A stretch of 40,104 nt of DNA, from positions 1 through 40,104 of the forward strand of contig CABYSN010000007.1 of assembly GCA_902521645.1 (NCBI GenBank), given 5' to 3'. Each line of letters opens with the position of its first letter. Position 1 is the first letter of the stretch. The position numbers and the translations under genes are program-made. The stretch is from Planctomycetota bacterium (GTDB lineage Bacteria; Planctomycetota; Phycisphaerae; Phycisphaerales; SM1A02). Below are positions 12,265-31,558 of the stretch, in pieces. The notes beneath the pieces were generated by a model. The model ran no database searches and had not been told where the DNA came from. It was given only the letters and a program-made list of their open reading frames with translations.

Positions 12265-12521
12265 CGAGATCTCCTGTCCGGATGAGGTCCGGTCGGCGCG
12301 AGAACGTCCCGGATGGAACGATGGCGCCACACTTGACTATGACCGCATCCTGACAGGCTGCAAGCCCCTGATGCGGTATCCGAAGGTCCAAATCAGGCGC
12401 TCACACGCCTGAAAGAGCGAAAACGCCCTCAGAGCCTCCCCAGACCGCGCGACCCGAAACGAACGGGTCAGAAAACCATACGTCGGCGAGGAGTTGGAAG
12501 GTCCGAAAAAACGGAGTTCCG

Positions 12522-12610: not shown

Positions 12611-15600
12611 TCATTGAACCTTGGTGAAGGCGAGGATCTTCGGCTCGTCGCTGGGCGTCGAGACCGAGCTTCGGTCGATCACCATCATGTAACGGCTCTC
12701 GTCGATGATGCGATCCTTGTCGGTCGCATCCCAGAGTCCGGTGGTCGGATCCTGCGAGAAGGTGCGCACCTTGAAGTAGACGGTGAAGACGTCGCTTCGC
12801 GTGGTCAGCATGTTCGCGATGCCGCTGAAGAGAAGCGCCGCTTCCTCGGCGTCACCCCCGACGTTGTCGGGACGGAACACCTTCTCGGGTGCGTTTCCGA
12901 TGCCACGCAACCAGTTCAGGTTGAGGCGTTCGGTGTTGCGATCGGTCGAGAGCCTGGCATCTGCCTGATTCTGCACGGGAATCGAGTAGCCGCTCGAGGT
13001 GTCCTCGTCCGACTTGAAGCCGCGCCATCCGAGTCGGTAGCGTTCACGAACGTAGTCGAGAGACACGTTTTCATTGATCTGTGGATTCGGATACCCGAGC
13101 CCGTACTGAACACCACCGAGCCTGGACAGCTCGTAGGGGTCGTTCGCGAACGAACGAACCGAGGCGCTCTTGCCCTCCCACTCCTTCGAACCGACCAGGT
13201 CGATCGGAAAACCGCTCTGGATCTGGTTCTCGTCGAACTGCGTCCGACTCATCGTCAGAAGTTCACCGAGCGAGACGATGCCTTCATCGTTCCGCATCCC
13301 GGGGAAGAAGCCGTAGAACTGATTGTTCGGATCACCATTGAGAATGGTCGGGAAGTCGACCGCATCCGGCTGATCGATGCCACGGAAACCACGGTCCGCG
13401 TAGGTCGGAAGAGATTCCAGATCACCCGCAGCCGCGAGTCCTCCATCACGATTGAAAACGTCCCCGAGGCGGTATCGCTCGATCGTTTCCGCGAAGCGCA
13501 CATGCATGTCGTTCTGCACACCGTAGGGAATGTCAACGGGGGCGGAACGACGGTTGCGGCCCTTGCTGTTGTTGTTGTGGTTGCCCACACCATGATTCCA
13601 GGCGAAGTAGTCGTTGTAGATCAGGCGACTCATCTGGGGCAGAGCACGCATCACCTCGACCGGTGCGGTGTTGATGTTGATCATGCCGCGAGTCGGTTCG
13701 CCGGTGAAACCACGAGCGAGGTTGAATCGGTTCTCCTCCGCGGCCAGCTGCTCGACGAAAGAGAGATCCCCGCTGTTGTCGTAGTCGTAGTCGTTGAGCG
13801 CGGTGCCGATGCCATCGACCGTGACGGCATCGAAGAGACCGGCGCCGGCGGGAAGCAACGGACGGTAGGCCGCGACGAGGAGGTTGCCCGCACCGAGCAC
13901 CTGACGCCAGGGACGACCTGGGTCCTTGCCGTTGGAACCAGCCGAGGCGACCAGACCGGCGGGACGTCCCTGGCCGAGATCGAGTCGGTTCGCGAAGACG
14001 CCCACACCCACCGGATATTCGTCGGACGGAAGCTGCTGCCCGCTGGACGCCATCCCCCACCACTCGGGTACGAACAGCGTCTGACCGCCGACGACCTGCT
14101 GCGTGGGTCGCTCGAATTCGATGACGTTGGTCATCAGTTCCGAGAAGGTCCGCTTCACGGGAACGAGCTCCCCTGCGGGCAATCCGCCCTGCGGGAAGTT
14201 CAACACCGGCCCCCAGAGGAAGACGTGGTTGAGTTCACCGATCTGTTCGAAGTCGGCGTCCTTCAGCAGCATCTGGAGCGGCGAGGCCCAGAGGTCCTCA
14301 CGGAAGCCCTTGAAGAACTCCTCCTGCTCCTGAGCCACGAGGTCCATTGGAATGATGTCGGTCTGTTCGAAATTGGTGGGCGTGCCGTTCGGACTGGTGG
14401 TGCGCTCGCGAACCAGCAGCTCGTTGTTGCCGAGCACGGTCTCGAGCGGGAAACCCTTGCCGTAGACGGCGGTCTGACCGGACTGATCAACCACGGTCCA
14501 GGTCGGGAAGTTGGTGGGCTTGCCACGAATCTCCCATGCGACCGGACGACTGGTCTGGCTCTGCCAGAGACCGTATCCGGGTTCGTAATCACCGAGCGGT
14601 CCGTTGTTCCACTTCCAGAGAGGTGCACCGTCCTGGATCTTGGTGATCGGCAGCGTGTAGACGACGGGCGTCGCCCATGGATTGCTCATGTCGTCGGGAC
14701 CACCGGTCTCGAACTGTGCGAGCGAAAGCGTGTTGCCACGAATCGGGCGCGCACCGAAGGAATCACTCTCACCGAGGGTGCGATCGAGATCGGGCGCGTT
14801 CTCGAAGGCGCAGATCGGTTCGGAGGTCACGCTGTAGACGAATCGAGGCGAGACCTCGTTCATGTCGTAGAGACCGTTGGCATCGACATCCCAGCCCCAG
14901 AACCGCGAGACGTGCGCCCAGGTGAAGTAGAAGTCGTCGTTGTTCAATCTGATGCCGGCCCATTCGAAACGACCACCGACCAGAGGGTCGAAGTTGTTGC
15001 CTCGCTCGGGTGGCGCGCTCTCCGTCAGGAAACGTTCGAACTTGAGTGCGAGTTCGTTGCCGTTGTGACGGGGATCGTCCTCCTCCTCGACACGATCGTT
15101 CTGGAGGCGATCGACCACCACGTTCGCGATGACGTTGATCCCGTCGGGAGCGTCGGTGCCGTCGGGCAGGGTGGGCGGATAGATGTTCCTGACCAGCTGG
15201 ATGAGCGGACGCTCCTCGGCACTTCCGGAACCATTGCCATCGGTGCTGAAGATCGATTCGGGCGTCTTGCCACTCATGATCAACGAGGCGTCGAAGACCA
15301 GTGACTCATGCCGGGAAAGCGGCATGTCGGGTTCGTACCCGTAGAGTTCACCGGGCGCGAGATCGAGATAGTCGAGACAGGCGGTCTTCATCTCCTGATA
15401 GGGAAGACCGAACGTCTCCTCGAAGGCCGCATCATCGAGTGGACCGATGTTGCCGGGTCGGATCAACGCGAAGACGACCGCACTTCTGGGCGCTTCCGGC
15501 TCGGTGGGACCGAGGTAGATCTGGTCGGCGAAATAGCGCTTGTTGAGATGCCCTTCAGTGAGGGCGTTGGGATGCGCGCAGTCGAGCAGGCGGAACGGGA

Positions 15601-18600
15601 TCTGACCGCCGGCGTTTCCGACCTTGAGTGAATAGTCGTAGAGCGAGATCGGTTCGTCGAAGGGATTGCCGAGCTGGATCGCCACCAGAATGGCGGGTCT
15701 GGAGCTGCTGTCGACGTAGTTCTCACCGGTCGCGGACGTGGCGCCTCCGGTGCCGTTCGCGAAGTAGGCGGGTGCCTGCTCGTTCGGGCAGTCGATCGCC
15801 GGGATGTCGCTGCCCTCGGCCCAGCAACCGCCGGGACCCTGGCCATGCGAACTCTTGGGATAGATCAGTCCGTAGAAGGCCTGCATGATGAACGGCTGCT
15901 TCTCGAAACCGATGTAGGCGTCATCACGCATGGGCTCGACCTGACCATCACCATCGAGGTCGACGTCGGGCAGGAAGTCGCCGGTGTTGGGATCGTAGGT
16001 GGAAGGTCGCAGCGCGAAGAGTGGATGGATCGGCTGGTCGATCAGGATGTCACGACCGTCGCTCGAAGGGGTGTTCGGGCTCGGCGTGAACGGGCTCGGA
16101 CCGTCACGAAACGACTCGATGTTGGCGGCGAAGCTCGGTGCCAGACGCAGCGACTTCAGATAGGCGTTCTGGAACTTGCTCTGCCCGGTCGAACCGTGGG
16201 CGGGTTCATCCGAGTCGTCGAGACTCCACCCGGAGTCGGTGAAATAACCCTGAGGAATCGAACGACCGGTGAAGGGATCGGTCGCGATCAGCGTGGTCGA
16301 TCGATAGATCACCTCCTGAAGGTCATCAAGCCACAGCCGCCGGTTCTCGAGCCAGTTCGAATCGTTGACCTGGACCCCGGCACCCTGGAATGACTGACGC
16401 AGATCGATCTTGCGACGACGGGTCTGGTACTCGTCGAAATCGTTGCGATCGCCGGTGGCATAGGTCTCGGAGTCGCGGTCATAGTCGAACTCACGGTTGA
16501 AATACGGGGTCTGCCAGAGCCAGAGCGGACGGTACTCGTTGCGCACACCGGTGATGGTGGTCATGCGGTGGCGCATGTCACGCACCTGCTGCTCGTTGAT
16601 CAGTGAACCGGAGGTCGCCCCGGGACTGTTTCCGCTGATGCCCTGACGCAGAGTCGCGGTCTCAGCGACGTTGATGTCCGAGCGCAGCGGGGAGAGACTG
16701 AGATCCCCATCGGTCACGTGGTTGCCGAGCACCCCTTCGAGTCGGGTGAAGCGCGTCGGGTGGTTGAGTCCGGAGAAGGCGCGAAGCTCGATCTCGTCGT
16801 TGACCCCGAACCGGTCGGCCACGTAGGGGACGGCCTCGTTCTCGCTGGGATCGACCCAGGTCCCGGTGAAGTCGTTCTGGACCAGATTGTTCCAGAGCTT
16901 GCGTTCACGAACCCCGAGTTCCGGCAGATCGTCCATGCCGGCGAGGGTTCGATACTGACCGTAGAAGGGACCGGCGCTGTTGTCGTCGGTGAGCAGCAGC
17001 TTGTCGACGCCACGTGCGTTGAGCATCGTCTGGGCCGTGACGGACGAATCGTCCGAGTACCAGCGGTTGAAATCGAAACGTGTCTCGATGTTCATGCCGA
17101 CGGTCTTGTAGAAACCTTCGTTCACCCTGTTCTTGGGATCTCCGAGCAGACCGGTCCAGGTGTCGAAGTCATCAAGATCGACTCCCCCCGATCCGGTCGG
17201 ATCTCCGAGACGACTGACCAGCGCGGCATCCGCCGGAGTGGCGCCCGAGGTCGACCAGCGGTCGAAGACGGTGGCGACGTTCATGTCGAGCATCGAATTG
17301 TTGTCGATGACCGAGACCCCCACCACCTGCTTCACACCGGGCCGTCCGGCAGTCGGCGGCACGAACCAGAAACTGTCGGTGAAACCGTCGCCGTCCGTGT
17401 CGCAGAAGGTGCGCTCGACCACGTTTCGCTGGGTGCCGCGAACGAAGGCGTCCTTGGGCGTGCTCAGAAAACCGTCGTTGTCGAACAGCCCGTTGAGATC
17501 GATGTAGTTGGGCAGAAGATCGTTCGAAACTCGGATCGCACCGAAATTGCCGGCGTCACCGAAGTGGACGCGGGGCGTGTTGAACCAGAGATTGCGCCGT
17601 CGCTGGAACTCGTCGACGAAACCCTGGACGTTGGGGCCTTCGATCGAAGTCGGCAGCACGTTGGGATACCACTGCTCGTAAGGCGTCTGAATCGCCACGG
17701 GGAATTCGGCATCGTGGTAGGGCCGATCGCCACCAGCGGGACCGTCGACCGAGACGGTGCTCAGCGTGAAGCCCCAGTCCGGTCCGTTGTCCTGATCGGG
17801 ATTGTCGGTGTAGTCGCCCGCCGCGAATCGGTACGGATCGAGTGGTGCCACGTTCGAGATGTCGTAGCACACGCGCCAGCCGTTCTCGGCCGTCGGGATC
17901 CAGGACAGATGCGTCCAGTGGGTGTAGCGTTCGATGTAGGGATCCTGGGCCTCGGGGTTGGAATCATACGGACCGCCGTAGTAATTCCCGACGCGACGCG
18001 GCTCGGTTTCACGAAGCCAACGGGTGTCTCCGAATCCGGGGTTGCCACGGGGATTGCCCACACCGTAGACGACCCCTGCATCGTCACGGAGTCGTCCCGC
18101 ATTCGCGACCGGGGCTCCGGTTCCGAAGGGAATGAAGAGCGGGTTGCTCGAAAGTCCGCTTCCGCTGAGATCGACGTCATCCGGCCAGTTGGTCCAGGGT
18201 CGGGTCTCGAACGGGGCGAAGTTGAAGTCGAAGGTCGAGTTCTGGTCGAGACCGAAACGGTCGTAGCCGAGCTTCACGTCGTCGTAGATCAGATCTCCGT
18301 CGACGTCGAAGACGCCTTCAGGCACCAGGACGGTCGAACGGGGCAGACCGCTCAAGGTGGCCTCGGCACGCAGCTCGAGCGGATCACCCGCGGCGTTGTA
18401 CTGACTGTCGGTGAAGATGTTGTAGTCGTCGTAGGAATCCTGCTGGACGGTTCCGTCGACCGGACGTGCGAAAAGCGAGGTCGTGATGTCCTTGACCAGC
18501 TGATCCTTCAGCACGGAGACGTTGTCGCCACGTTCGTAGGCGGCCTGCTGGCTTTTGGCGAGCTTGCGACCTTCCTGAGTACGAGTGATGAACGCGGTCG

Positions 18601-18760
18601 CGATGATCACCAGCAGCACGAGAATCGCGGTCACGAGGACCAACGTGTTGCCACGACGGGAGGAGACTGGAATGTCGGAGGCCGGAATCATGTCGGAAGA
18701 ACTCCACATGGGCGTGCTGACGGAACCGAGGGACTTGGTGACGATTTTTTTTCGACTCAT
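12611..18760 (-). CDS. Giant (2049 aa) GspK/PilX-like minor pseudopilin
   Basis: N-terminal SSRRG|NTLVLVTAILVLLVIIATAFI (prepilin-like site, hydrophobic helix, no Glu at +5); GspK-like RGMININTAPVEVMRALPQMS; last position of the E-F-G-H-I-J-K-like order; multiple Asp-rich Ca-loop-like motifs. Confidence 0.75.
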   Translation of the reverse strand: MSRKKIVTKSLGSVSTPMWSSSDMIPASDIPVSSRRGNTLVLVTAILVLLVIIATAFITRTQEGRKLAKSQQAAYERGDNVSVLKDQLVKDITTSLFARPVDGTVQQDSYDDYNIFTDSQYNAAGDPLELRAEATLSGLPRSTVLVPEGVFDVDGDLIYDDVKLGYDRFGLDQNSTFDFNFAPFETRPWTNWPDDVDLSGSGLSSNPLFIPFGTGAPVANAGRLRDDAGVVYGVGNPRGNPGFGDTRWLRETEPRRVGNYYGGPYDSNPEAQDPYIERYTHWTHLSWIPTAENGWRVCYDISNVAPLDPYRFAAGDYTDNPDQDNGPDWGFTLSTVSVDGPAGGDRPYHDAEFPVAIQTPYEQWYPNVLPTSIEGPNVQGFVDEFQRRRNLWFNTPRVHFGDAGNFGAIRVSNDLLPNYIDLNGLFDNDGFLSTPKDAFVRGTQRNVVERTFCDTDGDGFTDSFWFVPPTAGRPGVKQVVGVSVIDNNSMLDMNVATVFDRWSTSGATPADAALVSRLGDPTGSGGVDLDDFDTWTGLLGDPKNRVNEGFYKTVGMNIETRFDFNRWYSDDSSVTAQTMLNARGVDKLLLTDDNSAGPFYGQYRTLAGMDDLPELGVRERKLWNNLVQNDFTGTWVDPSENEAVPYVADRFGVNDEIELRAFSGLNHPTRFTRLEGVLGNHVTDGDLSLSPLRSDINVAETATLRQGISGNSPGATSGSLINEQQVRDMRHRMTTITGVRNEYRPLWLWQTPYFNREFDYDRDSETYATGDRNDFDEYQTRRRKIDLRQSFQGAGVQVNDSNWLENRRLWLDDLQEVIYRSTTLIATDPFTGRSIPQGYFTDSGWSLDDSDEPAHGSTGQSKFQNAYLKSLRLAPSFAANIESFRDGPSPFTPSPNTPSSDGRDILIDQPIHPLFALRPSTYDPNTGDFLPDVDLDGDGQVEPMRDDAYIGFEKQPFIMQAFYGLIYPKSSHGQGPGGCWAEGSDIPAIDCPNEQAPAYFANGTGGATSATGENYVDSSSRPAILVAIQLGNPFDEPISLYDYSLKVGNAGGQIPFRLLDCAHPNALTEGHLNKRYFADQIYLGPTEPEAPRSAVVFALIRPGNIGPLDDAAFEETFGLPYQEMKTACLDYLDLAPGELYGYEPDMPLSRHESLVFDASLIMSGKTPESIFSTDGNGSGSAEERPLIQLVRNIYPPTLPDGTDAPDGINVIANVVVDRLQNDRVEEEDDPRHNGNELALKFERFLTESAPPERGNNFDPLVGGRFEWAGIRLNNDDFYFTWAHVSRFWGWDVDANGLYDMNEVSPRFVYSVTSEPICAFENAPDLDRTLGESDSFGARPIRGNTLSLAQFETGGPDDMSNPWATPVVYTLPITKIQDGAPLWKWNNGPLGDYEPGYGLWQSQTSRPVAWEIRGKPTNFPTWTVVDQSGQTAVYGKGFPLETVLGNNELLVRERTTSPNGTPTNFEQTDIIPMDLVAQEQEEFFKGFREDLWASPLQMLLKDADFEQIGELNHVFLWGPVLNFPQGGLPAGELVPVKRTFSELMTNVIEFERPTQQVVGGQTLFVPEWWGMASSGQQLPSDEYPVGVGVFANRLDLGQGRPAGLVASAGSNGKDPGRPWRQVLGAGNLLVAAYRPLLPAGAGLFDAVTVDGIGTALNDYDYDNSGDLSFVEQLAAEENRFNLARGFTGEPTRGMININTAPVEVMRALPQMSRLIYNDYFAWNHGVGNHNNNSKGRNRRSAPVDIPYGVQNDMHVRFAETIERYRLGDVFNRDGGLAAAGDLESLPTYADRGFRGIDQPDAVDFPTILNGDPNNQFYGFFPGMRNDEGIVSLGELLTMSRTQFDENQIQSGFPIDLVGSKEWEGKSASVRSFANDPYELSRLGGVQYGLGYPNPQINENVSLDYVRERYRLGWRGFKSDEDTSSGYSIPVQNQADARLSTDRNTERLNLNWLRGIGNAPEKVFRPDNVGGDAEEAALLFSGIANMLTTRSDVFTVYFKVRTFSQDPTTGLWDATDKDRIIDESRYMMVIDRSSVSTPSDEPKILAFTKVQ

Positions 18761-20619
18761 GAATCGACCCTCGGCAGCGGAATGATGAACTCGAAGGCGC
18801 GCCCACCCTCGAGCCGTGCTTCTGAATCATGCAGGCGGAATGAGATGCGAACCGCCGTCGGCCAGGGGGTGTAGGTGCTGACGCCACGCCCGTTGTTGCC
18901 GGAGCCGACGATCCTGGAGCCCAGACCGGGCACGCCTCCGTTGAAGACGTAGGGTTCTCCGCTCGGCGTGCGCAGAATCGCGTTGTCACCGTTGAAACCG
19001 AAGACCGCGCCGTACCGGCGGATCACACTTCCCGGATCGTTGGCGGTCTCTTCTCCGAATTCGATGTGGGCGAGCGTCTCATCGGTCTGAAGACCGAAGG
19101 GATCGGAGATGAAGAAGGTGCCGGAGCCCAGTTCGGTGCCGACCGGAGGACCGATGCGGACCGCATCCCCACCCGCACCACCACCACCGGTGGCGCGACG
19201 TCCGGGATCGCCGATGTGCGACCACCCGGATCCCGAGTCAGGCGGAAGCGAGCCATCCATGAACGCACTGGCGGGCGCGGATCCGATGACCTCATCGGAA
19301 AGTCCGAACCAGGGTGTGCTTCCGCCATTCACAAGCGCGGTGCCTTCGACGACCACGCCGGGCAGTCCACCGACGAGCCTCTGGTCGGATCCGTTTCCGG
19401 GAAAGGACACGTCCTTGTCGCGACCGACGCCATCGGCCCAGGTCCACTCGACGCGAAAGTCGGAGACATTGGGCCCGAGCACGGCATTGGTCAGCATCGT
19501 GTCCATGCGCTGCATGCTGGGCGCGCGAAGTTCTCCACGCGGGTATCCGTTGTACATCGCATCGAGCACCTGATTGGTCTTGACCAGGTCGGTCGGACTG
19601 GCGAAGAAATCGTTCTCGCCGCCCTGATTCGAGCCGTTGAAACCCCAGTCGCTGGGATCGTTCCAGAAGTAACAGACTTCCTGACGCAGCGTGTCACGCT
19701 CGGTGGCGGCGATGTCGACGCGAGAGTTGATCAGGTCGGGCCGAAAGCGAATCGAGCCATCGTTGAAGGGATCGTAGAAGATCGAGGGTGCGGAGTTCGG
19801 GTCGCCTCCGGCGTCACCGGACATGAAGTAGTCTCCGGTGTTGCCGACATCCCCACCACCGGTCTGACGCGAGCCGTCATCATCACCCAGCAGCGTCGAT
19901 TGACGACACAGGATCCAGTTCTCGGTCGACTCCGGAAGCAGAGGCACGTTCGAGGCCGCGTTGGCCCCGCTCGGCCAGCGTTGGAAGGGAAGGTCACCTG
20001 CAGGGTAGTAACTCCAGGGATAGAGCCCTTCGTTGTCGGCGTTCTCGAGCCCTTCCCGATCGATGTCGAGGATGTCGCCACCGACGGGGTCGTTCTGATA
20101 GGGCTGGATCTTCACCTGAACCCCGGGACTGTAGAAGACGCTCGAGTAGTAGCTCTGAGCGGGCGCGGGCTTGTCCAGACCGACCTGATCCGAAGAGGCG
20201 TTCGCGTAGGAGTCGAGCGCCCGGGTCGAGGCGGCCAGACCCTCCGTGAAGAAGAAGAGCTGGTCGGAGCGGATCTCCGCGTCATCATCCCGAGTGGGGT
20301 CGAGCAGGCGACCGGTCTGTGGCTTGTTGATGTCGTTTGGGACACCCACGCACTGGACCGCGAAGAAACCATCACGCGTGATCCGCTTGAAGTCGTTGCG
20401 GATGACTCGTTCGATCGCGTTGGCCTGCTGGAGGATGTCGGAGTTCGCCTCACCCAGCGAGGAGACCCTCTGCGCGGTGCTGAAGATCGAACTGGTCGCG
20501 AGAATCACGACCAGAAGGACCGCGATCGCGATCAACATCTCGGTCAGGGTGAACGCAGCCCGAAGAGGGGCGATACTTGAGAAACGTGAATGGGTCCGCT
20601 GTCTTGGTGTGCGAGTCAT
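18757..20619 (-). CDS. Large GspJ-like pseudopilin (620 aa)
   Basis: RAA|FTLTEMLIAIAVLLVVILATSSIF prepilin N-terminus; 4-bp overlap with the gspK-like gene; position J in cluster. Confidence 0.72.
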   Translation of the reverse strand: MTRTPRQRTHSRFSSIAPLRAAFTLTEMLIAIAVLLVVILATSSIFSTAQRVSSLGEANSDILQQANAIERVIRNDFKRITRDGFFAVQCVGVPNDINKPQTGRLLDPTRDDDAEIRSDQLFFFTEGLAASTRALDSYANASSDQVGLDKPAPAQSYYSSVFYSPGVQVKIQPYQNDPVGGDILDIDREGLENADNEGLYPWSYYPAGDLPFQRWPSGANAASNVPLLPESTENWILCRQSTLLGDDDGSRQTGGGDVGNTGDYFMSGDAGGDPNSAPSIFYDPFNDGSIRFRPDLINSRVDIAATERDTLRQEVCYFWNDPSDWGFNGSNQGGENDFFASPTDLVKTNQVLDAMYNGYPRGELRAPSMQRMDTMLTNAVLGPNVSDFRVEWTWADGVGRDKDVSFPGNGSDQRLVGGLPGVVVEGTALVNGGSTPWFGLSDEVIGSAPASAFMDGSLPPDSGSGWSHIGDPGRRATGGGGAGGDAVRIGPPVGTELGSGTFFISDPFGLQTDETLAHIEFGEETANDPGSVIRRYGAVFGFNGDNAILRTPSGEPYVFNGGVPGLGSRIVGSGNNGRGVSTYTPWPTAVRISFRLHDSEARLEGGRAFEFIIPLPRVDS

Positions 20620-22019
20620 CAGAGTTCTCCCACGGTGGCATAGACGGGCGTGAGCGTGAATCCATTGCGGGTCTCTGGAGGAATGAACCAGATCGACTTG
20701 ACCGCACTCGCGATGTTGGCTCGCGCGGTGTTGTCGACCGCTCCCCCGGGCGTTGCGTTGTTGAGATTCCCGTTCACGTCCATGACCGGAACATAGGGCA
20801 CCTGCTGCGTGAGCCGGACAGGTCCTTCGGCACCGTTGTCACGGCCGGCGAGAACTCGATGCACGGTCCCGTTCTGATCGATCAACCACTGCCCGGACTG
20901 CTGCCACCCGTTGGCATAAGGGTCGAGCTGACTCAGGACGGAACCCGAGGGAAGCGTGCCGGGAACGGTGAGATTGTTGAGCGGATTGTTGTCGGGAGTC
21001 ACGCCGCCTTCCGGATACCAGCGATCATTGACCGAAGGGAAATCGACCCTGACTGGAAGTGGGGATTCACGGGGGTTCTTGATGGCGACACCCGAGATGA
21101 GGTCGGGACTGGCTGGAGCACCCTGATGACAGACGGCGTAGGGAAGCTGTTCCCCACCATTGAAACCGACTCGATAGACGAAGATCGCGACCTGGACCCG
21201 ACCTTGATACCGACGGAACATGCAGTCCCAGTAATACTCGGGCGCATCGGCACCGCGCGGCCAGCCACGCTCGTCCTGAGTCACCATGACCAGGGGCTCC
21301 GAACGACCTTCGCGAAGCGGGTCGGTGTGATCGTCGAAGTTGCCGTTTCCTGAGGGAAGGAATTCGTTGAGAATCAGATACTTGTTGCGGTTGAATGGAA
21401 TGCCCGCGAGAAACCGTGCTTCCTCCTCGTCGAAGTCGTCCTGAAAGACGGGATCAAGCGAGGGCGAGATCGGCGTGGGACAGAACCCCGAGTAGAACGT
21501 GCCCATGTTGGCGAAATCGCTGGTGTAGAAGGAACTGGAATTGTCTTCCTGGGTCGTGGCGGGGTGCTGACTGGACATGTTTCCGACAGCACGGGTGAGG
21601 CGCAGACCGAAGATGTCGATGGCGCCATCGAGGGCATCGGGCTCACGATTGACATCGGGAAGTTCGTTCGGACTGGGTTGGGACGCTCCGTCGAGAATGA
21701 AGGACGGACGCATCCATCCCCAGTCCCCGGAGACCGTCTGCAGGTTGTCGTCGCCGACCGTGGAACCGGCTCGCACAGCGCCGGCGGTCAGATCGAACTG
21801 TTCGAATGTTCCGAAGTCCTCCTGGGACATCTTGGTGCGCAGCAGATTCAGACCCTGCGCGGCGACGATGGGCCCCATGACGTCATCACGAGTCCGCTGC
21901 TGCTGGGCGATGCCCGCGGGAAAGATCGCAGCGACCGCGATGATTCCGATGCCGAGAATGAAGATCGCAAGCAGAAGCTCGACCAGCGAGAATCCGGATG
22001 GCGTGTTGCGAGTGTTCAT
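20619..22019 (-). CDS. Large GspI/PilV-like pseudopilin (466 aa)
   Basis: SG|FSLVELLLAIFILGIGIIAVAAIFPAGIAQQQ prepilin N-terminus; stop/start overlap with next gene. Confidence 0.72.
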   Translation of the reverse strand: MNTRNTPSGFSLVELLLAIFILGIGIIAVAAIFPAGIAQQQRTRDDVMGPIVAAQGLNLLRTKMSQEDFGTFEQFDLTAGAVRAGSTVGDDNLQTVSGDWGWMRPSFILDGASQPSPNELPDVNREPDALDGAIDIFGLRLTRAVGNMSSQHPATTQEDNSSSFYTSDFANMGTFYSGFCPTPISPSLDPVFQDDFDEEEARFLAGIPFNRNKYLILNEFLPSGNGNFDDHTDPLREGRSEPLVMVTQDERGWPRGADAPEYYWDCMFRRYQGRVQVAIFVYRVGFNGGEQLPYAVCHQGAPASPDLISGVAIKNPRESPLPVRVDFPSVNDRWYPEGGVTPDNNPLNNLTVPGTLPSGSVLSQLDPYANGWQQSGQWLIDQNGTVHRVLAGRDNGAEGPVRLTQQVPYVPVMDVNGNLNNATPGGAVDNTARANIASAVKSIWFIPPETRNGFTLTPVYATVGEL

Positions 22020-23002: not shown

Positions 23003-23832
23003 GGCTTCTCCGGCTGATAGGAATAGACGTTGTCCTGATGATCCGGAATCCCGTCGTTGTCGCCATCGGTCGTTCCGAAATCACCGAACCGACCATCCGG
23101 CCCGGAAGACACGAGAAGCGGCCGGCGATTGCGGCAGATGCCGAATTCGATTTCATCCTGCGTCAGGATCGTGCCGTCGGTGTCGCGGAAGAAAGATCCT
23201 TCGTCACACTCGTACCAACGACGTCCCGGGAAGATGATGTAGACCTGACGATTCCAGGGGTCCACGAATTCCTTCATGTTGAAGGTGGTGATGAGAGGTT
23301 CGCCCTGGGTGGAACCGATGACGCAATCAGCGGCATGGACCAGGGTGGGGTCCGCCTTGGCGATGATCTCGGCGCAGGCCGGACTCTGGCCGAGCACGGA
23401 GAGTGCCGCAGCGAGCCACTGCCGTCGCGGATCCGAACTGCTGTTCCAGGGATCGCAGTTGTTGTTGCGTTCCCACCCGAAGGCACCATCCTCGATGTCC
23501 CCGTTGAATCGGAGATCCCCATAGGGCGCGTAGGGGACGTCGTAGTACGCATTCACATAGCGACAGTTGGAGAATCCGCAGTATTCGTCATCGACGCCTT
23601 CGAAGATCATCTCACGACCCGCCTGCTGTTCGAACTCGACCAGTGCGGCATCGACGATCGCCATGGTCGATCGGATCTGCCGGTCCTCCGACTGCCTGAG
23701 CACGATCGAACCGACTCCGAGGACGAGCCCCATGAGCAGCAGGATGATGCCGAGCACGATGACCAGCTCGAGCAGCGTGAAGGCACGTCGAACAGGTCTC
23801 ATGATGTGGGAGCGGGATGGCGTCATGATCAT
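22999..23832 (-). CDS. GspG-like pseudopilin (277 aa) with C-terminal DGDNDGIPDHQDN loop
   Basis: RRA|FTLLELVIVLGIILLLMGLVLGVG; EFVDPWNRQVYIIFPGR resembles GspG DPWGNPY; C-terminal SSGPDGRFGDFGTTDGDNDGIPDHQDN. Confidence 0.7.
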   Translation of the reverse strand: MIMTPSRSHIMRPVRRAFTLLELVIVLGIILLLMGLVLGVGSIVLRQSEDRQIRSTMAIVDAALVEFEQQAGREMIFEGVDDEYCGFSNCRYVNAYYDVPYAPYGDLRFNGDIEDGAFGWERNNNCDPWNSSSDPRRQWLAAALSVLGQSPACAEIIAKADPTLVHAADCVIGSTQGEPLITTFNMKEFVDPWNRQVYIIFPGRRWYECDEGSFFRDTDGTILTQDEIEFGICRNRRPLLVSSGPDGRFGDFGTTDGDNDGIPDHQDNVYSYQPEKP

Positions 23833-24932
23833 TTGCCGGTCTCCACGATGTTGTCCGCGTTGTAATCGTTCTCGGCGTCGATTCGAACGTCGTCGGCGCT
23901 CTTGCCGTCGGCACCGGGGCTGAACAGCGCGTAGCGTGACGCGACGAGGGCACGTGAGGCGGAGGAGTCGCCGTTGGCATCGTTGTAACGACTGTTCACG
24001 TCGGCTCCGGTTTCGAACGAATTCGGACGAAGCGCGATGACTTCGGCGAGCGAGAAAGTCTCATCGAAGAGTCGGGGATCACGGACGTCGGCAGGCGGAC
24101 GCCGGTAGTAGCGCAGAGGGTTTCCCCAGTAGTCGAGAAACACCTTGGGGTTGTTGCCATCCGCATAACCGGCATCACCGGGAAGCAGCACTCGATCCCA
24201 GACCTGGCCGTCGGCGGTGCCGCCGCTGCCATTTGAGAACGCCATGTCCTGAACCTCGCCGATCACGGTGGCGTCCTTGAGATCCAGATAGGGACCGTAG
24301 ACCTTGCCCTGCAGGGTGTGTCCGTTGTTGCCGCTGTAGGAGACGTTGCCCAGATTGCCGGGATTTCGACTGGCGAACGGGACGCCGCTGGCACTGACAT
24401 TGCTGCCGCCACCACCGAAACGTGGATTCAAGGTGGCATTCCAGAAACCATCGGGCCCGGGGGAACGGAACCCGAGCGCGGGATGCTCCCGTTGACCGGG
24501 CGTCATGTCGGAAGGCGACAGGGTGATCGGAGGCGAAGGATTGCCGCCTTCGGGCACGTAGCCGTAGCCGTCCATCCGTCGATCGTCGTAGCCGAGCAGG
24601 AACTCGGGCAGCGAGGTCAGCGAGTAGTAGGCCTGCTGCTCCTGGAACCCATCGGGAAGCGCCAGCAGATCACGCCCATGGCCCACGCCACCGGCCGCGG
24701 TCGACTGCGGCCCGAGCACCGGCGGGAGGTACCCGTGGTCGGTCTCGAAGCGGGAGATCGCATCGTTGATCGCGTTCATCAACTGGACCGTCCGGCCCTG
24801 CTGGGCGGTCCGGGCGGCCTTCGAAAGCGTGGTGATGAGGATGCCCGCGAGGATCACGATCACCCCCACCGTGACGAGCATCTCGGTGATGGTGAAGGCG
24901 CGAGCGCGTCTGTCTGATTCGAGTCGAAGCAT
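23829..24932 (-). CDS. GspG-like pseudopilin (long form)
   Basis: MLRLESDRRARA|FTITEMLVTVGVIVILAGILITTLSKAART; VFLDYWGNPLRYYRRPP; C-terminal FSPGADGKSADDVRIDAENDYNADNIV resembles the GspG SxGADG...DADI loop; start 24932 supported by AAGGAA upstream. Confidence 0.72.
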   Translation of the reverse strand: MLRLESDRRARAFTITEMLVTVGVIVILAGILITTLSKAARTAQQGRTVQLMNAINDAISRFETDHGYLPPVLGPQSTAAGGVGHGRDLLALPDGFQEQQAYYSLTSLPEFLLGYDDRRMDGYGYVPEGGNPSPPITLSPSDMTPGQREHPALGFRSPGPDGFWNATLNPRFGGGGSNVSASGVPFASRNPGNLGNVSYSGNNGHTLQGKVYGPYLDLKDATVIGEVQDMAFSNGSGGTADGQVWDRVLLPGDAGYADGNNPKVFLDYWGNPLRYYRRPPADVRDPRLFDETFSLAEVIALRPNSFETGADVNSRYNDANGDSSASRALVASRYALFSPGADGKSADDVRIDAENDYNADNIVETGK

Positions 24933-24986
24933 GTCGATCGATTCCTTACGGTGCACGGTGGAGGTCGGTTCGCCGACTTCCACGGT

Positions 24987-26279
24987 TCATTTCTGTCCGG
25001 AGACGCTTTCGATCATCGAAACCAGCGGAAGGAAGAGGGCGAGCACGATCGTGCCGACCACGCCTCCGAGGATCACGACCATCGCGGGCTCGAGAAGACT
25101 CAGCAGCGACTGGACCGCCACATCGACCTCTTCGTCGTAGTTGTCGGCGATCTTCATCAACATCACGTCGAGGTCACCGGTCTCTTCACCCACCTGGATC
25201 ATGTTGACCACGATCAGGTCGGTGACCTTGGCGTCACGAAGCGGGTCCGCGAAGGTCTCACCCTCGCGGATCGAATCATGCACGTTTCCGAGAGCACGTT
25301 CGAAGACCCAGTTGCCGGAAGTCTCCTTGGTGATGGTGATCGCCTCGAGAATCGGCACGCCGGCCGCGATCAGGGTTCCGAGGGTACGGGTGAAACGGGC
25401 GACCGCCGTCTTCTTGATCAGATTGCCGACCACCGGAATCTTGAGGATGATCCAGTCGGTCGCAGCGCGACCGACCTTGGGTATGCGTATCAATTTGTAG
25501 CCTGCGAACAGGAATATCGGTGACAACACGATCCAGACCGCGCCCGGTATGTCCTGCCCTTCGTCCTGGCCGGCGACCCAGCGACTCGCGTCGATGAGGA
25601 ACAGGGTGAGGTCGGGAAGCTTGACGTCGAAGTCGTTGAAGATCTCCTGGAACTTCGGAATCACGAAGTACATGATGCCGGTCACGATCAGCACCGCGAT
25701 GGTGATGACCACCGATGGATAGATCATCGCGCCCTTGATGCGGCGGCGCAGGCGCTGCCCCTTCTCCATGAAATCAGCGAGACGCTGGAGGATGATGTCG
25801 AGCACGCCACCGATCTCGCCGGCCGCCACCATCTTGCAGAAGAGTCGGTCGAACGCACGTGGATGCTTCGCCATCGCCTCGGACAGGGTCGTGCCCTGTT
25901 CCACATCCTCGGTCACGCCCTTGAGGATGCGCTTGAAGCGCCCCCCCTTCTGCTGACTCTCGAGAATCTGCAGCGAACGAAGCAGCGGAAGGCCCGCGTC
26001 CTGAAGCGTCGAGAGCTGGCGGGTGAAGAGCGTGAGCTTCTTCAGGCCGACCTTGCCCACCGGCAGATCGAGGACGATGCCCTTGCCCTTCTTCTTGGCC
26101 TTGGCATCGCCTTTGTCCTTGCCTCGCCCTTTCTGCTTCTTCTCCTTGATCGAGCCCTGCATCGGAAAGAGTCCCTTTTCACGGATCTTCTTTCCGGCTT
26201 CCTGAGGAGAGCCGGCGTCGATCGTGTTGGAGAGCTCCTTGCCCGTGGCGTCGACGGCCTTGTACTGGTAAGTCGGCAT
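24987..26279 (-). CDS. GspF/PilC-like inner-membrane platform protein
   Basis: MPTYQYKAVDATGKELSNTIDAGSPQEAGKKIREKGLFP..., FTRQLSTLQDAGLPLLRSLQIL, ARFTRTLGTLIAAGVPILEAI, TGDLDVMLMKIADNYDEEVD, LEPAMVVILGGVVGTIVLALFLPLVSM. Confidence 0.93.
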   Translation of the reverse strand: MPTYQYKAVDATGKELSNTIDAGSPQEAGKKIREKGLFPMQGSIKEKKQKGRGKDKGDAKAKKKGKGIVLDLPVGKVGLKKLTLFTRQLSTLQDAGLPLLRSLQILESQQKGGRFKRILKGVTEDVEQGTTLSEAMAKHPRAFDRLFCKMVAAGEIGGVLDIILQRLADFMEKGQRLRRRIKGAMIYPSVVITIAVLIVTGIMYFVIPKFQEIFNDFDVKLPDLTLFLIDASRWVAGQDEGQDIPGAVWIVLSPIFLFAGYKLIRIPKVGRAATDWIILKIPVVGNLIKKTAVARFTRTLGTLIAAGVPILEAITITKETSGNWVFERALGNVHDSIREGETFADPLRDAKVTDLIVVNMIQVGEETGDLDVMLMKIADNYDEEVDVAVQSLLSLLEPAMVVILGGVVGTIVLALFLPLVSMIESVSGQK

Positions 26280-26342
26280 CGGTGTGGATTCCCATCGTTG
26301 TTGCGCGAATGTCCGCGACTTGAAAAAAGGTCACTGTCTGAA

Positions 26343-26373
26343 GCCCGCGTGCGGTCGGAAGACCGATGCGGGC
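26343..26373 (-). other. Intercistronic hairpin between the pilB/gspE-like and gspF-like genes
   Basis: Minus strand GCCCGC-AT-CGGTC-TTCC-GACCG-CAC-GCGGGC; a T6 run lies further downstream at 26323-26328. Confidence 0.5.
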
Positions 26374-26384
26374 GCTTGTTCCAA

Positions 26385-28103
26385 CTAGTCGTCGAGAATG
26401 GTCTCACGGACGACTTCATCGATCGTGGTCTGGCCTTCGTAGAGCGCCATCAATCCGCTTTCTCGAAGCGTGCGCATGCCATGCGATCTGGCTTCGGCCC
26501 GAACCAGAGCGGTCGAGGCCTGGCCCGCCACCAGTTCACGAATCTCGTCGTTCATCTGCATGATCTCGAACAGCGCCATTCGCCCCTTGTAACCGCCGTG
26601 ACATGCATCGCAACCACGGCCGCGATAGAGGGTGCGACCTTCGATGTCCTCGGGCTTGAGCTGAAGCTCCATGAGCTGTTCGAGAGATGGCGTGAACTCC
26701 TCCTTGCATTTGGCGCAGACCTTGCGGACGAGGCGCTGGGCGACGATCGCTTCCACGGTCGCGGTCAGCAGGAAGCTTTCCACGCCGAGGTCGGTGAGTC
26801 GCAGCATGGTGCTCGGTGCGTCGTTGGTATGCAATGTCGCGAACACCAGGTGACCGGTGAGCGACGCCTGGATGGCGATCTGCGCGGTTTCAAGGTCTCG
26901 AATCTCACCGACGAGGATCACATCCGGGTCCTGACGCAGGAAGGAACGCAGCAGCGCCGCGAATGTCAGGTTCTGCTCGGTGTTGACCTGACACTGGATC
27001 AGACCGTCGATGTCGTATTCGACCGGGTTTTCAGCGGTGAGGATCTTGGTTTCGGCGTCGTTCAAAGCGGTGAGCGCGGCGTAGAGGGTGGTGGTCTTGC
27101 CGGAACCGGTGGGACCGGTGACGACCACGATCCCGTTCGGGCGTCGAATGATCGAATCGACCTGCTGGAAGTCGTCGTCGCGAAGGCCGATGTTCTCGAG
27201 CTCGAGGCTGACGACGTCACGGTCGAGAATTCTCAGCACGCCGGATTCACCGAACATGGTGGGCAGGATCGAGACACGCAGGTCACGCCCCATCATCGCG
27301 ATGCGACCGTCCTGAGGCAGTCGCCGTTCAGCGATGTCGAGGTCGGCCATCACCTTGATTCGGCTGATGATCGCCATGGCGAGATGCTTGCGCACCGGAG
27401 CCATTTCATACAACACGCCGTCGATGCGCTGACGAATGCGAAGCTGATCTTCGAACGGCTCGAAATGGATGTCCGATGCCTGTTCCTGAATGCCGATTCG
27501 AAGAACGAGGTCGAGAAGTTCGATGATCTGGTTGTCGCCGGCCGCCTGCTCGATGACTCCGAGATCGATGGACTCGCCGCGGCTGGAGAGGGTGTCCAGT
27601 GCATCGGAATCCCCGGCCCGAGCCAGAACCTCACCGAGATCCGTCGCACCTGAGAAGTGTTCCTTGATCAACGCATCGACCTGCGCAGGATCCGCGACCA
27701 CGGCCTGAACCTTGAAGTCCATCAACTGCGAAAGGTCGTCGATCGCCCGGAAGTTGTCGGGGGACTTCATGGCGATGAGAATTCGCCGAGAGCCTTCGTC
27801 GTATTTCAGCGGCACGACGGAATACGCACGTGCCGTTTCCGGTGGAATCGCGGCAAGCGCCTCGGGGTCGATGGTCCGACCTTCGAGGTTCACCATCTGG
27901 AACCCTCGCTGGAGGGAGAGCGCCTCGGTGATCTGAACGTCGGTGCAGTGCCCGAGTTCGATCAGCAATGCACCCAGCTGTTCCTTGCGCTCCTTCTGGA
28001 GATGCAGTGCTTCGTAAACCTGCTCACGGGTGCAGCGTCCCATGCGACGGAGAATCCGCCCGAGACGTTCGCCCTTGAGTACTTTTGGATCGATCTTTGC
28101 CAT
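26385..28103 (-). CDS. GspE/PilB-like assembly ATPase with MshEN-like N-terminal domain
   Basis: GPTGSGKTTTLYAAL Walker A, VGEIRDLETAQIAIQASLTGHLVFATLHTNDA, tetracysteine CAKC...CDAC; N-terminal RLGRILRRMGRCTREQVYEALHLQ and QLGALLIELGHCTDVQITEALSLQ. Confidence 0.92.
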   Translation of the reverse strand: MAKIDPKVLKGERLGRILRRMGRCTREQVYEALHLQKERKEQLGALLIELGHCTDVQITEALSLQRGFQMVNLEGRTIDPEALAAIPPETARAYSVVPLKYDEGSRRILIAMKSPDNFRAIDDLSQLMDFKVQAVVADPAQVDALIKEHFSGATDLGEVLARAGDSDALDTLSSRGESIDLGVIEQAAGDNQIIELLDLVLRIGIQEQASDIHFEPFEDQLRIRQRIDGVLYEMAPVRKHLAMAIISRIKVMADLDIAERRLPQDGRIAMMGRDLRVSILPTMFGESGVLRILDRDVVSLELENIGLRDDDFQQVDSIIRRPNGIVVVTGPTGSGKTTTLYAALTALNDAETKILTAENPVEYDIDGLIQCQVNTEQNLTFAALLRSFLRQDPDVILVGEIRDLETAQIAIQASLTGHLVFATLHTNDAPSTMLRLTDLGVESFLLTATVEAIVAQRLVRKVCAKCKEEFTPSLEQLMELQLKPEDIEGRTLYRGRGCDACHGGYKGRMALFEIMQMNDEIRELVAGQASTALVRAEARSHGMRTLRESGLMALYEGQTTIDEVVRETILDD

Positions 28104-28480
28104 CGTCTCACATCGTCCTGGCCACAGCCGTACGTGCCCTCGAGGTTGAAGACCTTCTCGGTGCGAAGGTCCGTGACGGTGGATGAGACTCGGACCAGTC
28201 CGAGACGCCTCCAGAAAGACCGCCTAGTTCAGCCACAATGATCGGCGGATGAGAAGCGTCCTGCAAGGCTCTCAAGGCTGAATTTGATTGTGACATCTGG
28301 ATTTTATCACTCCTATACAGGTTCATACGCAGAAGACCTCGGCGCTTCCTCAGACAATTTTCCAATTGCTGAAAATGGAATCGGTCCTGAGCGACTTCAA
28401 AGGGCTTTTTATAAATTGTGACACATGGATTTAAGTGCATATGAGCCGGGCTCGAATCCAACGGAGAAAGCTCAAGGCAG

Positions 28481-28508
28481 AAAAAAACCGGCACCTTCGT
28501 ACCGGTTT
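28481..28508 (-). terminator. Rho-independent terminator of the pilT-like gene
   Basis: Minus strand AAACCGGTAC-GAAG-GTGCCGGTTTTTTT: 10-bp stem (one G-T pair), 4-nt loop, T7 tail, about 30 nt after the pilT stop. Confidence 0.85.
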
Positions 28509-28539
28509 GAAATCATGACATGGAGGGCGTGAGGCGTGC

Positions 28540-29655
28540 TCAATCCCCTGCCGATTCCTCGTCCAATTCGGCTCGTCCCACGGACCCGCCGAGCTTGTGC
28601 ACCTTGGCGGTCAGGCCGCTTGGGTCTCGACACTTGTCGATCATCTCCTCGGCGGAAATCATGCCGCGCGAGAAAAGCGTCCACAGATGGTCGTCAAGCA
28701 ACTGCATGCCGAACTTCTTCCCGGTCTGAATCGCGGAGTCGATACGGAAGGTCTTGGCTTCACGAATCAGGTTCGCGATCGCAGGCGTCACGACGAGGAA
28801 TTCGTAACAGGCGACTCGCCCGGGCTTGTCGGTGCGGGCCAGGAGAACCTGACTCAGCACGGCGATGAGACTGGTCGAGAGCTGGACCCTGATCTGTTCC
28901 TGCTGATCGACGGGAAAGGCGTCGATGACTCGGTTGATGGTGCCCGCGGCACCGGTGGTATGCAGGGTGGCAAACACAAGGTGACCGGTTTCCGCGGCTC
29001 GAATGGCGGCTTCGATGGTCTCGAGGTCTCGCATTTCACCGACCAGGATCACGTCGGGGTCGGCGCGCAACGCACGTCTCAGCGCTTCCGAGAAGCTGTC
29101 CACGTCGATGCCGAGCTCACGCTGGTTGATGATCGACTTCTTGTGACTGTGGTAGTACTCGATCGGATCCTCGACCGTGATGATGTGGTGGTCGTGGTTC
29201 ATGTTGATGTGATCGATCATGGTGGCCAGGGACGTCGTCTTTCCCGAGCCGGTGGGACCGGTGACGATGAAGAGACCTCGAGGCCGCCGGATCAGTTCAC
29301 GACAGATCTCTGGAAGCCCGATCTCGTCGAACGTCAGCAGCTTGTTCGGAATCAGGCGCAGCACCATCACCGTGTCACCGCGCTGCTTGAAGACCGCGAC
29401 ACGAAAACGTGCCTTTTCACCGAACGCGAAACCGAAGTCGGTCGAACCGGACTCCTGAAGTTCCTGCTGGTTCTTCTCGGGCGTGACGGCCTTCATCAGA
29501 ACGGTCATGTCGTCGTTGTCGAGCACCTTGGTCTTGAGCTCTTGAAGCCGTCCGTTCAGACGAAGGGTCGGCTTTCGGCCGGTCGTCAGGTGGAGGTCGG
29601 AGGCGTCCTCTCGGACGACTGTCTCCAGAAGTCGGTCGATCTGCATTGTGGACAT
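28540..29655 (-). CDS. pilT: PilT-like twitching/retraction ATPase
   Basis: MSTMQIDRLLETVVREDASDLHLTTGRKPTLRLNGRL, GPTGSGKTTSLATMIDHIN, AEDPIEY-like VEDPIEYYH, LVGEMRDLETIEAAIRAAETGHLVFATLHTTGAAGTINRVIDAFP. Confidence 0.95.
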   Translation of the reverse strand: MSTMQIDRLLETVVREDASDLHLTTGRKPTLRLNGRLQELKTKVLDNDDMTVLMKAVTPEKNQQELQESGSTDFGFAFGEKARFRVAVFKQRGDTVMVLRLIPNKLLTFDEIGLPEICRELIRRPRGLFIVTGPTGSGKTTSLATMIDHINMNHDHHIITVEDPIEYYHSHKKSIINQRELGIDVDSFSEALRRALRADPDVILVGEMRDLETIEAAIRAAETGHLVFATLHTTGAAGTINRVIDAFPVDQQEQIRVQLSTSLIAVLSQVLLARTDKPGRVACYEFLVVTPAIANLIREAKTFRIDSAIQTGKKFGMQLLDDHLWTLFSRGMISAEEMIDKCRDPSGLTAKVHKLGGSVGRAELDEESAGD

Positions 29656-29743
29656 CGTTCAGGCCGCTCTTTTCTTGACTTGGACTCGATGGGGTCAGCT
29701 TCGGTCGTTACGAAAGACCGAGATACACGTGGGGCTCATGGAT

Positions 29744-31558
29744 TCAGATTTCGTTGGGATTGAATCCCTCGATCTGCGCGAACTTCGCGATCTCCTCGGG
29801 CGTGGTGTCGCCGCGGAGAATCTTCACTTTACCATCACCAAGAAGACTTCTCATGCCTCCTCGAATGGCCGCTTCGCGGATCTTGGAGATCTGCGCGCGC
29901 TCGAAGGCCAGTTCACGGACCTCCGCATTCATCCGCATGAGCTCGAAGATGGCTTTTCGTCCTCGGTAGCCGGTGCCTGCACAGTTGGGGCAACCGACCG
30001 CCTTGCGAATGTTGCCCGCCTCGACCTCGTCAGGACTGATGTTCACCAGCTTGAGGAAACGAGGATCGGGGTTTTCATCGACCTGGGCGCACTTCGGACA
30101 GAGGATTCGAATCAGCCTCTGAGCCATGATCGCCTGGATCGAACTCGCCACCAGGAACGGTTTCACACCGATGTCGATGAGTCGCGTGATGGCGGAAGGC
30201 GCGTCGTTGGTATGCAACGTCGAGAAGACCAGGTGACCGGTGAGGGATGCCTGGATCGCGATGTCGGCGACCTCACGGTCTCGAATCTCACCGACCAGAA
30301 TGACGTTGGGCGCCTGACGCAGCATGGCACGGAGAATCGCCGTGAAGCTCAGACCGATCGACTCGCGGACCTGGACCTGGTTGATGCCGCTGAAGTTGTA
30401 TTCCACGGGATCTTCGGCGGTGATGATCTTGCGATTGGGCGTGTTCAGCGTGTCGAGCGCGGAATACAGCGTGGTCGTCTTGCCGGAACCGGTGGGCCCG
30501 GTCACGAGGAAGATGCCGTTGGGACGCTTGATGATTCGTTCGAAGATCTGGAGGTTGTCCGGCTCGAAACCGATGTTCGCCAGACCGATCCGGACCGAAT
30601 CGGGACGAAGCACTCGAAGCACGACGCTTTCACCGTGGTAGGCCGGACAGAAACTGACACGGAAGTCGATGTCCACGGGCTCGCCACCGGACTCCTCGGC
30701 GATCGCCATCTTGATGCGACCATCCTGGGGAATTCGGCGTTCCGCCACGTTCACACCCGCCATCAGCTTCAAACGAGCGAGCAACGAAGGCTGGAGACTC
30801 TTGGCGATGTCGTGGCGTTCATGGCAGATGCCGTCGATTCGATAACGAAGACGCACACGGTCGACCATGGGTTCGAAATGGATGTCGCTGGAACGACCGC
30901 GGACGGCCTCCTTGATGATCTTGTTCGCGAGTGCGACGATCTTGGAATCGCCGTCCACGGCGACGTCGACGGAGGCGTCGATGGAGTCGACCGACTGCTC
31001 CCGGTCGACCGAACGGTCATCCGATTTGTCGATCGTGCTGTCGTCCCCGCTGATCTCACGCTTCATACCGCCGCCGAGATCGTCGATGTAGGCCTTGATC
31101 TGCCCGCGGGAACCGATGACCAGATCGATGTCCTTGCCGAGACGGAAACTCAAGGTGTCGATCAGGCCGAGATCGGAAGGGTCATGCGCGACGAGGGTGA
31201 TGCGACCGTTGGACTCCTCGAGAGGGAGCACCAGATGTTTCCGAATGATGTCGCCATCGATGAGCTCGACGTCGATGCGTCCGAGACCTGCCGCCGTGGA
31301 GAGATCGATGAAATCGATGTCGAACTGGGTGGCGATCGACTGAGCGATCTGCTCTTCCGTCGCGACGCCCTCCTCGATCAGGACCTCACCCAGCTTCTTG
31401 CCGGTGGCGGAGGCGGTTTCGCTGGCACTGTCGACCTGGGCCTCATCGGCGATTCCAGTTTCGATCAGTATCTCACCAAGCTTCTTGCGTGCCTTCAGAA
31501 CCAAAACAGTCTCCGTCGCGGACCTCCTCGAAAAGGCTCGCATCATGAATGGGGACAT
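29744..31558 (-). CDS. Second GspE/PilB-like ATPase
   Basis: GPTGSGKTTTLYSAL, AEDPVEYNFSGINQVQV, VGEIRDREVADIAIQASLTGHLVFSTLHTNDAPSAITRL, CPKC...CPNC. Start placed near 31558/31546 (MSPFMMRAFSRRS); the ORF-track start 31945 would run through the divergent CoaB gene. Confidence 0.88.
   Translation of the reverse strand: MSPFMMRAFSRRSATETVLVLKARKKLGEILIETGIADEAQVDSASETASATGKKLGEVLIEEGVATEEQIAQSIATQFDIDFIDLSTAAGLGRIDVELIDGDIIRKHLVLPLEESNGRITLVAHDPSDLGLIDTLSFRLGKDIDLVIGSRGQIKAYIDDLGGGMKREISGDDSTIDKSDDRSVDREQSVDSIDASVDVAVDGDSKIVALANKIIKEAVRGRSSDIHFEPMVDRVRLRYRIDGICHERHDIAKSLQPSLLARLKLMAGVNVAERRIPQDGRIKMAIAEESGGEPVDIDFRVSFCPAYHGESVVLRVLRPDSVRIGLANIGFEPDNLQIFERIIKRPNGIFLVTGPTGSGKTTTLYSALDTLNTPNRKIITAEDPVEYNFSGINQVQVRESIGLSFTAILRAMLRQAPNVILVGEIRDREVADIAIQASLTGHLVFSTLHTNDAPSAITRLIDIGVKPFLVASSIQAIMAQRLIRILCPKCAQVDENPDPRFLKLVNISPDEVEAGNIRKAVGCPNCAGTGYRGRKAIFELMRMNAEVRELAFERAQISKIREAAIRGGMRSLLGDGKVKILRGDTTPEEIAKFAQIEGFNPNEI

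Follow-up and report, generated by a model that had tools for sequence, protein, structure and literature searches.

The window analysed here, a 40,104-nt stretch of a Planctomycetota bacterium (contig CABYSN010000007.1, assembly GCA_902521645.1), carries a run of ten genes that resemble parts of both type IV pili and type II secretion systems (T2SS). Which machine do these genes build, and can the last of them, K, really encode one protein of 2049 amino acids (aa)? We conclude, with moderate confidence, that a retractable type IV pilus of planctomycete type, carrying a very large pilin at its tip, draws its motor, its platform and all its pilins from this locus. This pilus is related to both the type IVa pilus (T4aP) and the T2SS pseudopilus; its parts are members of the type IV filament superfamily.

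A probable pilus gene block with an intact giant K

All ten open reading frames (ORFs) described in the earlier note were recovered on the minus strand, at the same coordinates. The block opens with a PilB-type extension ATPase of 604 aa (29744..31558, from the ATG at 31558; the mechanical ORF extends to 31945), followed by a PilT retraction ATPase (371 aa; 28540..29655), a second PilB/GspE ATPase with an MshEN domain (572 aa; 26385..28103) and the PilC/GspF inner-membrane platform (430 aa; 24987..26279). Six prepilin-type genes then occupy 12.37 kb, close to the 12.3 kb estimated earlier: the GspG-like and perhaps major prepilin G (23829..24983), a second GspG-like prepilin G' (277 aa; 22999..23832), the minor prepilins H (GspH/FimU-like, 328 aa; 22016..23002), I (GspI/PilV-like, 466 aa; 20619..22019) and J (GspJ/PilW-like, 620 aa; 18757..20619), and the giant GspK-like tip prepilin K (12611..18760), which was assigned from its motifs and the profiles of its homologues. 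G measures 384 aa from a GTG, and the 367 aa given earlier holds from an inner ATG. The order first proposed, E-F-G-H-I-J-K, becomes E-F-G-G'-H-I-J-K after PilB and PilT, and departs from that of a pure T2SS. Neighbouring genes from G to K share 4 bp (ATGA) at four of their five junctions and a single base at the fifth, I–J, and F and G are 3 bp apart; F through K form a single tightly spaced operon.

K is a real single gene under strong purifying selection over its whole length. Copies of 2043 and 2053 aa on contigs of independent metagenome-assembled genomes (L055 and L056) are 92% and 90% identical to it, and the ratio of nonsynonymous to synonymous substitution (dN/dS) is 0.04–0.11 in every full 250-aa segment; H, I and J give 0.09–0.17. 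The earlier note had named two outcomes that would overturn its reading, namely fusion of separate genes and placement of the large proteins outside the pseudopilin families. The full-length copies and the dN/dS values rule out assembly or frameshift fusions for K and J, and the large proteins stay within these families through GspK-, GspH- and PilV-type profile matches.

Prepilin signatures were confirmed in all six proteins, five of which (all but K) carry A/G followed by F-[ST]-[LI]-x-E. G has the signature AFTITEMLV and matches gspG (4e-4); G' matches N_methyl (4.7e-5) and gspG (0.007). Because G and G' both end in a GspG-like S.G.DG motif (SSGPDG in G'), we take the extra gene to be a second GspG-like prepilin. 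H matches gspH (1.3e-6), I matches PilV (TIGR02523, 2.7e-6) and gspI (0.013), and J matches gspJ (0.039).

The landmarks of K follow the order of those in GspK. Its prepilin N terminus (aa 35–66; 18563..18658), RRG followed by NTLVLV, has an invariant G37 and lacks Glu5 (A1 alignment), and its helix aligns with planctomycete T2SS GspK at an hhalign probability of 96% (E 2e-9). A DxDGDGxxD loop with a first RIID-N-x-NVN motif (aa 454–496; 17273..17401) resembles the GspK pattern 'V.I.DE.GKININ', and D454, D456, G457, D458, D462 and D486 are invariant in an alignment of 18 homologues. So are arginine 730, an N-P motif near 1033 and GxxNxN(TA) at 1692–1699. The last of these opens the second, NINTA helix-hairpin-helix (HhH) motif typical of GspK (aa 1692–1770; 13451..13687; hhalign 93%, E 3.5e-7). 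Between the two NxN motifs about 1.2 kaa are inserted, including a lamin-tail-domain-like stretch with approximate boundaries (~aa 1027–1170; 15251..15682). The most conserved part is the C-terminal domain RSDVF...RY..DRS (aa 1960–2049; 12614..12883), with S/D/R/DRS invariant in the A3 alignment. On these alignments, four landmarks of GspK type are retained in K, on either side of an insert that includes a lamin-tail-like domain. GspK has been described as a tip pseudopilin, and both GspK and PilX lack Glu5 (PMC7541494, PMC6211770); because K lacks it too, K would be the first subunit.

Profile searches place this likeness in local motifs. Homologues of K reach HHH_3 (5.2e-7), T2SSK (4e-4) and the lamin-tail domain LTD (down to 6e-6) in Pfam; window K itself (P0001) has no Pfam match, LTD included, and only weak matches in NCBIfam. 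The curated GspK model NF037980 gives 0.98 for window K and at best 1.7e-6 for homologues (L172 scores 28.2 bits, where the cut-off is 130), so that homology to GspK, as judged from profiles, extends to local motifs and falls short of the curated model. In the AlphaFold2 model of an 873-aa homologue (predicted local distance difference test, pLDDT, 44 overall) a helix spans residues 15–71, with pLDDT ~76–88 over residues 21–70; the better-predicted parts, which are this long N-helix, two strands before the first NVN and three C-terminal strands, fit what one would expect if an insert interrupted a pilin fold. The top Foldseek match of this short homologue was the lamin Ig domain 1ufg (E 0.029), which agrees with the LTD matches in Pfam.

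Motors, likely partners and separate secretion systems

Both extension motors score higher as PilB (578 and 561 bits) than as GspE (547 and 525). The first matches TIGR02538 pilB (2.7e-168), T2SSE (2e-122) and the cyclic di-GMP (c-di-GMP) motif model NF053729 (2.2e-13), and has an MshEN c-di-GMP-type domain at its N terminus; the second reaches 578 bits with TIGR02538 against 547 with TIGR02533 gspE, and 6.9e-12 with NF053729. PilT lies above the TIGR01420 pilT_fam cut-off (452 against 319 bits). The platform matches T2SSF (3.2e-64) and scores almost equally as PilC (NF052606, 384 bits) and GspF (TIGR02120, 380 bits). Because the PilB and platform scores all stay under the equivalog cut-offs (675.65, 700 and 424), these proteins are best read as diverged members of the type IVa families. 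An ATPase tree sets the two PilBs and the PilT of the block apart from other planctomycete type IV ATPases, in clades with good support; window PilT falls in a 26-row clade together with PilTs of syntenic loci. In two K loci of family f62 (L171, L175) the stretch from PilC to the prepilins also encodes a histidine kinase, a response regulator and a response regulator-PAS-GGDEF-EAL protein, with domains scanned in L171 only, which suggests c-di-GMP control of the machine there.

The earlier idea that the locus encodes a divergent machine for secretion or a pilus, with a massive complex at its tip, stands, with the T2SS rejected as its identity. A T2SSK_1st-type GspK of 355–650 aa is encoded at another place in 183 of the 392 phylum genomes, and most genomes with the K block have a separate T2SS as well. 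The nearest relative (G424, same genus) has a T2SS locus with an 853-aa GspD bearing an N0 domain and a 601-aa GspK, and in both G424 and a second genome, G329, GspD is linked to canonical GspK away from the K block. The separate T2SS is complete, with GspD, GspK and GspL/M-like genes. Since this locus with an ordinary GspK coexists with a block that carries PilT and PilB-leaning motors, identity with the T2SS is ruled out. As already noted from the sequence, the window holds no secretin, PilM/N/O or GspC/L/M; the GspD linked to GspC/L/M that marks a T2SS is therefore absent from it, and a dedicated PilT, foreign to a T2SS, sits inside the block.

The window's own small genome (G000) has more than one type IV filament system on its contigs C4, C7, C27 and C82, the K machine of the window among them, and the nearest relative adds the canonical T2SS. 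Tad/Flp components (TadB/TadC, CpaF, Flp pilin and RcpC were tested) lie on C82 and not at the locus. The C4 locus pairs PilMNO and a secretin with a histidine kinase and HD-GYP. It was rejected as the same system: its ATPase is 38% identical to window E and does not group with the motor clades of the block, and the locus brings a PilM, PilN, PilO and secretin of its own.

Partners for the K machine were found outside the window. The assembly of the own genome comprises 108 contigs and reaches 54% completeness, so absences there carry little weight; it encodes a prepilin peptidase and three secretins, those of Tad (C82), the C4 locus and a secretin fused to tetratricopeptide repeats (TPR-secretin, C27), and of the partner set described next only the TPR-secretin was found in it. 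In relatives a three-gene cassette recurs, comprising a 590–796-aa PilM-type protein and two large membrane-anchored proteins. In three genomes from two distant families (G329, G336, G425) the TPR-secretin gene comes after the cassette in the same orientation, and together they make up a pilM-N-O-Q-like operon. G329 has three detected secretins only, which belong to the T2SS locus with GspK, to a locus with Tad-like genes (by sequence reading) and to the TPR-secretin; because the first two are thus accounted for, the unlinked PilM/N/O-like genes and the TPR-secretin are likely partners of the K machine. Across the 392 genomes, K and the third cassette gene (A6) occur together in 72, K alone in 28, A6 alone in 20 and neither in 272 (Fisher p ~1e-36), a strong association, though one that shared descent exaggerates and that the sensitivity of the profiles constrains. 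PilY1 was detected in none of 17 genomes, and control genomes gave no match either.

The third cassette gene (L229, L238, L234, L278) contains a conserved 'W.HD..V.PG.TYRYR....V.NP' domain with no Pfam match, and glycine-rich linkers occur in all three cassette proteins in several genomes. Giant secretins with open frames of 4634–5073 aa, in which a long row of N-domain-like repeats precedes a single secretin core at the C terminus and whose versions in Planctomycetia measure ~1.2–1.5 kaa (six Secretin_N in L233), were seen in 4 of 16 K-bearing genomes (L245:650-15196:- in G412, G084:C18, G032:C1 and G013:C2); being confined to some of these genomes, they were rejected as the general partner.

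Distribution and the weighing of readings

With window K as query, relatives were found in 34 of 120 genomes of the class. A profile of the last 130 aa detected K in 100 of the 392 phylum genomes, nearly always in one copy, including 42 of the 43 genomes of the order and all ten of the further Phycisphaerae genomes listed. The synteny survey proposed in the earlier note bears this out: the order PilB-PilT-E-F-prepilins-K is kept in ~38 fetched loci, as far as each stretch reaches, and PilB is the first gene in most relatives whose stretch reaches so far. Across Phycisphaerae and further classes the block reads PilB-PilT-PilB-PilC-(4 to 8 prepilins)-giant K, and its last gene is always large, with K open frames of ~0.65 to 2.9 kaa. 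This is a mostly single-copy system of the phylum Planctomycetota, not a one-off oddity. One contig filed under Limnohabitans (L122, JASGCF010000128.1) carries a planctomycete-type K gene, probably through a binning or naming error.

Behind K lies a secreted metalloprotease (9301..12330, minus strand) with HELGHNLGACH and a dockerin-like C-terminal tail (LNFDGFVDGVDLSLLLNNWG...). It recurs behind K in L055, L056 (split into two ORFs), L057/L178, L061, L064, L070 and L074, with several marine relatives among its carriers, and is possibly a client of the machine and not a part of it. MotB-like and MotA-like stator genes, by sequence reading, lie near the pilus block at 1079–2758 on the minus strand.

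Compared with a T4aP, the locus shares PilB, PilC and PilT and minor pilins in the H-I-J-K order of FimU-PilV-PilW-PilX, the last one without Glu5; the PilM-N-O-Q-like operon of relatives would be a further likeness. It differs in that all pilins are enlarged, K is GspK-like and not PilX-like, the likely PilQ counterpart is fused to TPRs and two PilB genes flank PilT. With the T2SS pseudopilus it shares the order F-G-H-I-J-K, the GspK N-helix and NINTA/HhH motif and the GspG-like C-terminal S.G.DG, and differs in having PilT, a separate true T2SS, an extra GspG-like protein and a K of 3–7 times the length, which contains an LTD-like insert. The principle of modular pilins has precedent: in Streptococcus sanguinis PilB a bulky functional module is carried on a pilin and predicted at the tip (PMC8179133). 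There the domain is appended after a small pilin module, whereas here ~1.2 kaa are inserted within a GspK-type pilin, and this phylum-wide. A survey of type IV filaments does not mention Planctomycetes in its main text (PMC6668835), and the titles and abstracts returned by our literature search named no planctomycete loci with enlarged pseudopilins.

Several points weigh against the retractable pilus. The AlphaFold2 models of K are weak (pLDDT 55 for the window K insert, with a predicted template modelling score of 0.63, as well as 44 for the homologue); the insert model has no significant match in the PDB, and AlphaFold2 with Foldseek matched no pilin or GspK confidently, its weak top match being the lamin-Ig-like domain in the short homologue. 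PilT lies outside the block in f62 and f99 loci; f62 genomes have it elsewhere, and it was not seen in f99 loci. The link from the locus to PilMNO and the secretin rests on elimination and co-occurrence; the surface fibre, its retraction and its ligand are all predicted. Finally, both the gene order from G to K and the HhH motif in K resemble the T2SS and would also suit a role in secretion.

Among other readings, the one that survives best, and which we regard as a serious possibility if somewhat short of probable, is that the block is a planctomycete branch of NCBI's Verru_Chthon cassette, an ancient pilin set of the Planctomycetes-Verrucomicrobia-Chlamydiae superphylum with a giant A protein. 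By profile comparison the A, C and D proteins of this cassette, of which C and D are of prepilin type and A is very long, are the nearest named proteins: H resembles D (TIGR02596, 2.5e-8; 1.4e-7 for the same pairing in another family of the phylum), J resembles C (TIGR02599, 0.0056; 9e-5 for the homologue in L165), and the C terminus of K aligns with that of A (TIGR02600, 2e-5), as do 4 of 18 K homologues. All scores lie far under the family cut-offs, with A, C and D matched in part and B unmatched, and our literature search found no paper using the name; nor is the cassette known to be linked to motors and a platform. This is a statement of relationship, compatible with the pilus reading.

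A more tentative reading takes the machine, with its own motor clades, enlarged pilins, TPR-fused secretin and giant GspK-type tip, for a type IV filament class of its own at the level of the phylum. It would build the thick fibres of planctomycete crateriform structures and drive uptake of bound polymers into the enlarged periplasm.

Rather unlikely, in our judgement, is a second, specialised T2SS in which a short periplasmic piston would carry K as a tip recruiting very large or polymer-bound exoenzymes, such as the adjoining metalloprotease. The G-H-I-J-K order, the HhH/NINTA motif and the dockerin-tailed enzyme directly behind K, in the same clade, would fit such a system; however, the same genomes hold the complete separate T2SS, the block has PilT and PilB-leaning motors, GspC was not seen, and the enzyme is not conserved as a neighbour beyond one clade. 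We give still less credence to a DNA-uptake (competence) pilus with a DNA-binding tip, to which the retractable PilB/PilT architecture and weak matches of ComGC/D/E/F models to prepilin N termini could point, since the Com matches cover only the generic prepilin N terminus and the HhH of K is the short GspK motif. That K and J are fusions or chance frames in high-G+C DNA, an idea invited by long antisense ORFs and the window's 61% G+C, is refuted by the full-length copies, the dN/dS values and the large homologues throughout the phylum, and has practically no chance of being right.

A candidate for planctomycete surface fibres

How might the retractable pilus work? Beyond gene content, the steps below follow by analogy from what is known of T4aP and the T2SS. 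H, I, J and K would prime the filament and sit at its tip, with K as the first subunit. The c-di-GMP-type PilB motors would extend a filament of the enlarged GspG-like pilins, with extension set by c-di-GMP sensing through the MshEN domains. The filament would leave through the TPR-secretin and display the ~1.2-kaa insert of K outside, where it may act as an adhesin or polymer receptor; PilT would then retract the filament and pull bound material to the outer membrane. The machine is probably a surface adhesin or uptake fibre.

Planctomycetes take macromolecules into a wide periplasm, and among the papers that our search found, none names a gene set for the fibres or the uptake (PMC5394234, PMC8303584). 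Fibres 12 nm thick on large crateriform structures bind dextran, which is taken up into the periplasm (Boedeker et al., PMC5394234), and type IV pili of Fimbriiglobus are reported, as cited in PMC11131199, to enhance adhesion to chitin. By analogy, the fibre predicted for the K machine would be a candidate for these 12-nm dextran-binding fibres.

A conserved, mostly single-copy gene set with a retraction motor and a giant tip offers a concrete candidate for planctomycete fibres. In the genetically tractable Planctopirus limnophila three pilQ-like genes have been deleted singly with viability kept (PMC11958385), and the set could be deleted there if the species carries it. The origin of the unusual surface fibres of Planctomycetota, whose carriers of the set are widespread in marine and fresh waters, thereby becomes directly testable. 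The finding also widens the range of sizes known for tip proteins of the pilin family, K being several times larger than its textbook counterparts, and crosses the boundary between T2SS and type IV pilus within one machine, in which a GspK-type tip occurs together with PilT.

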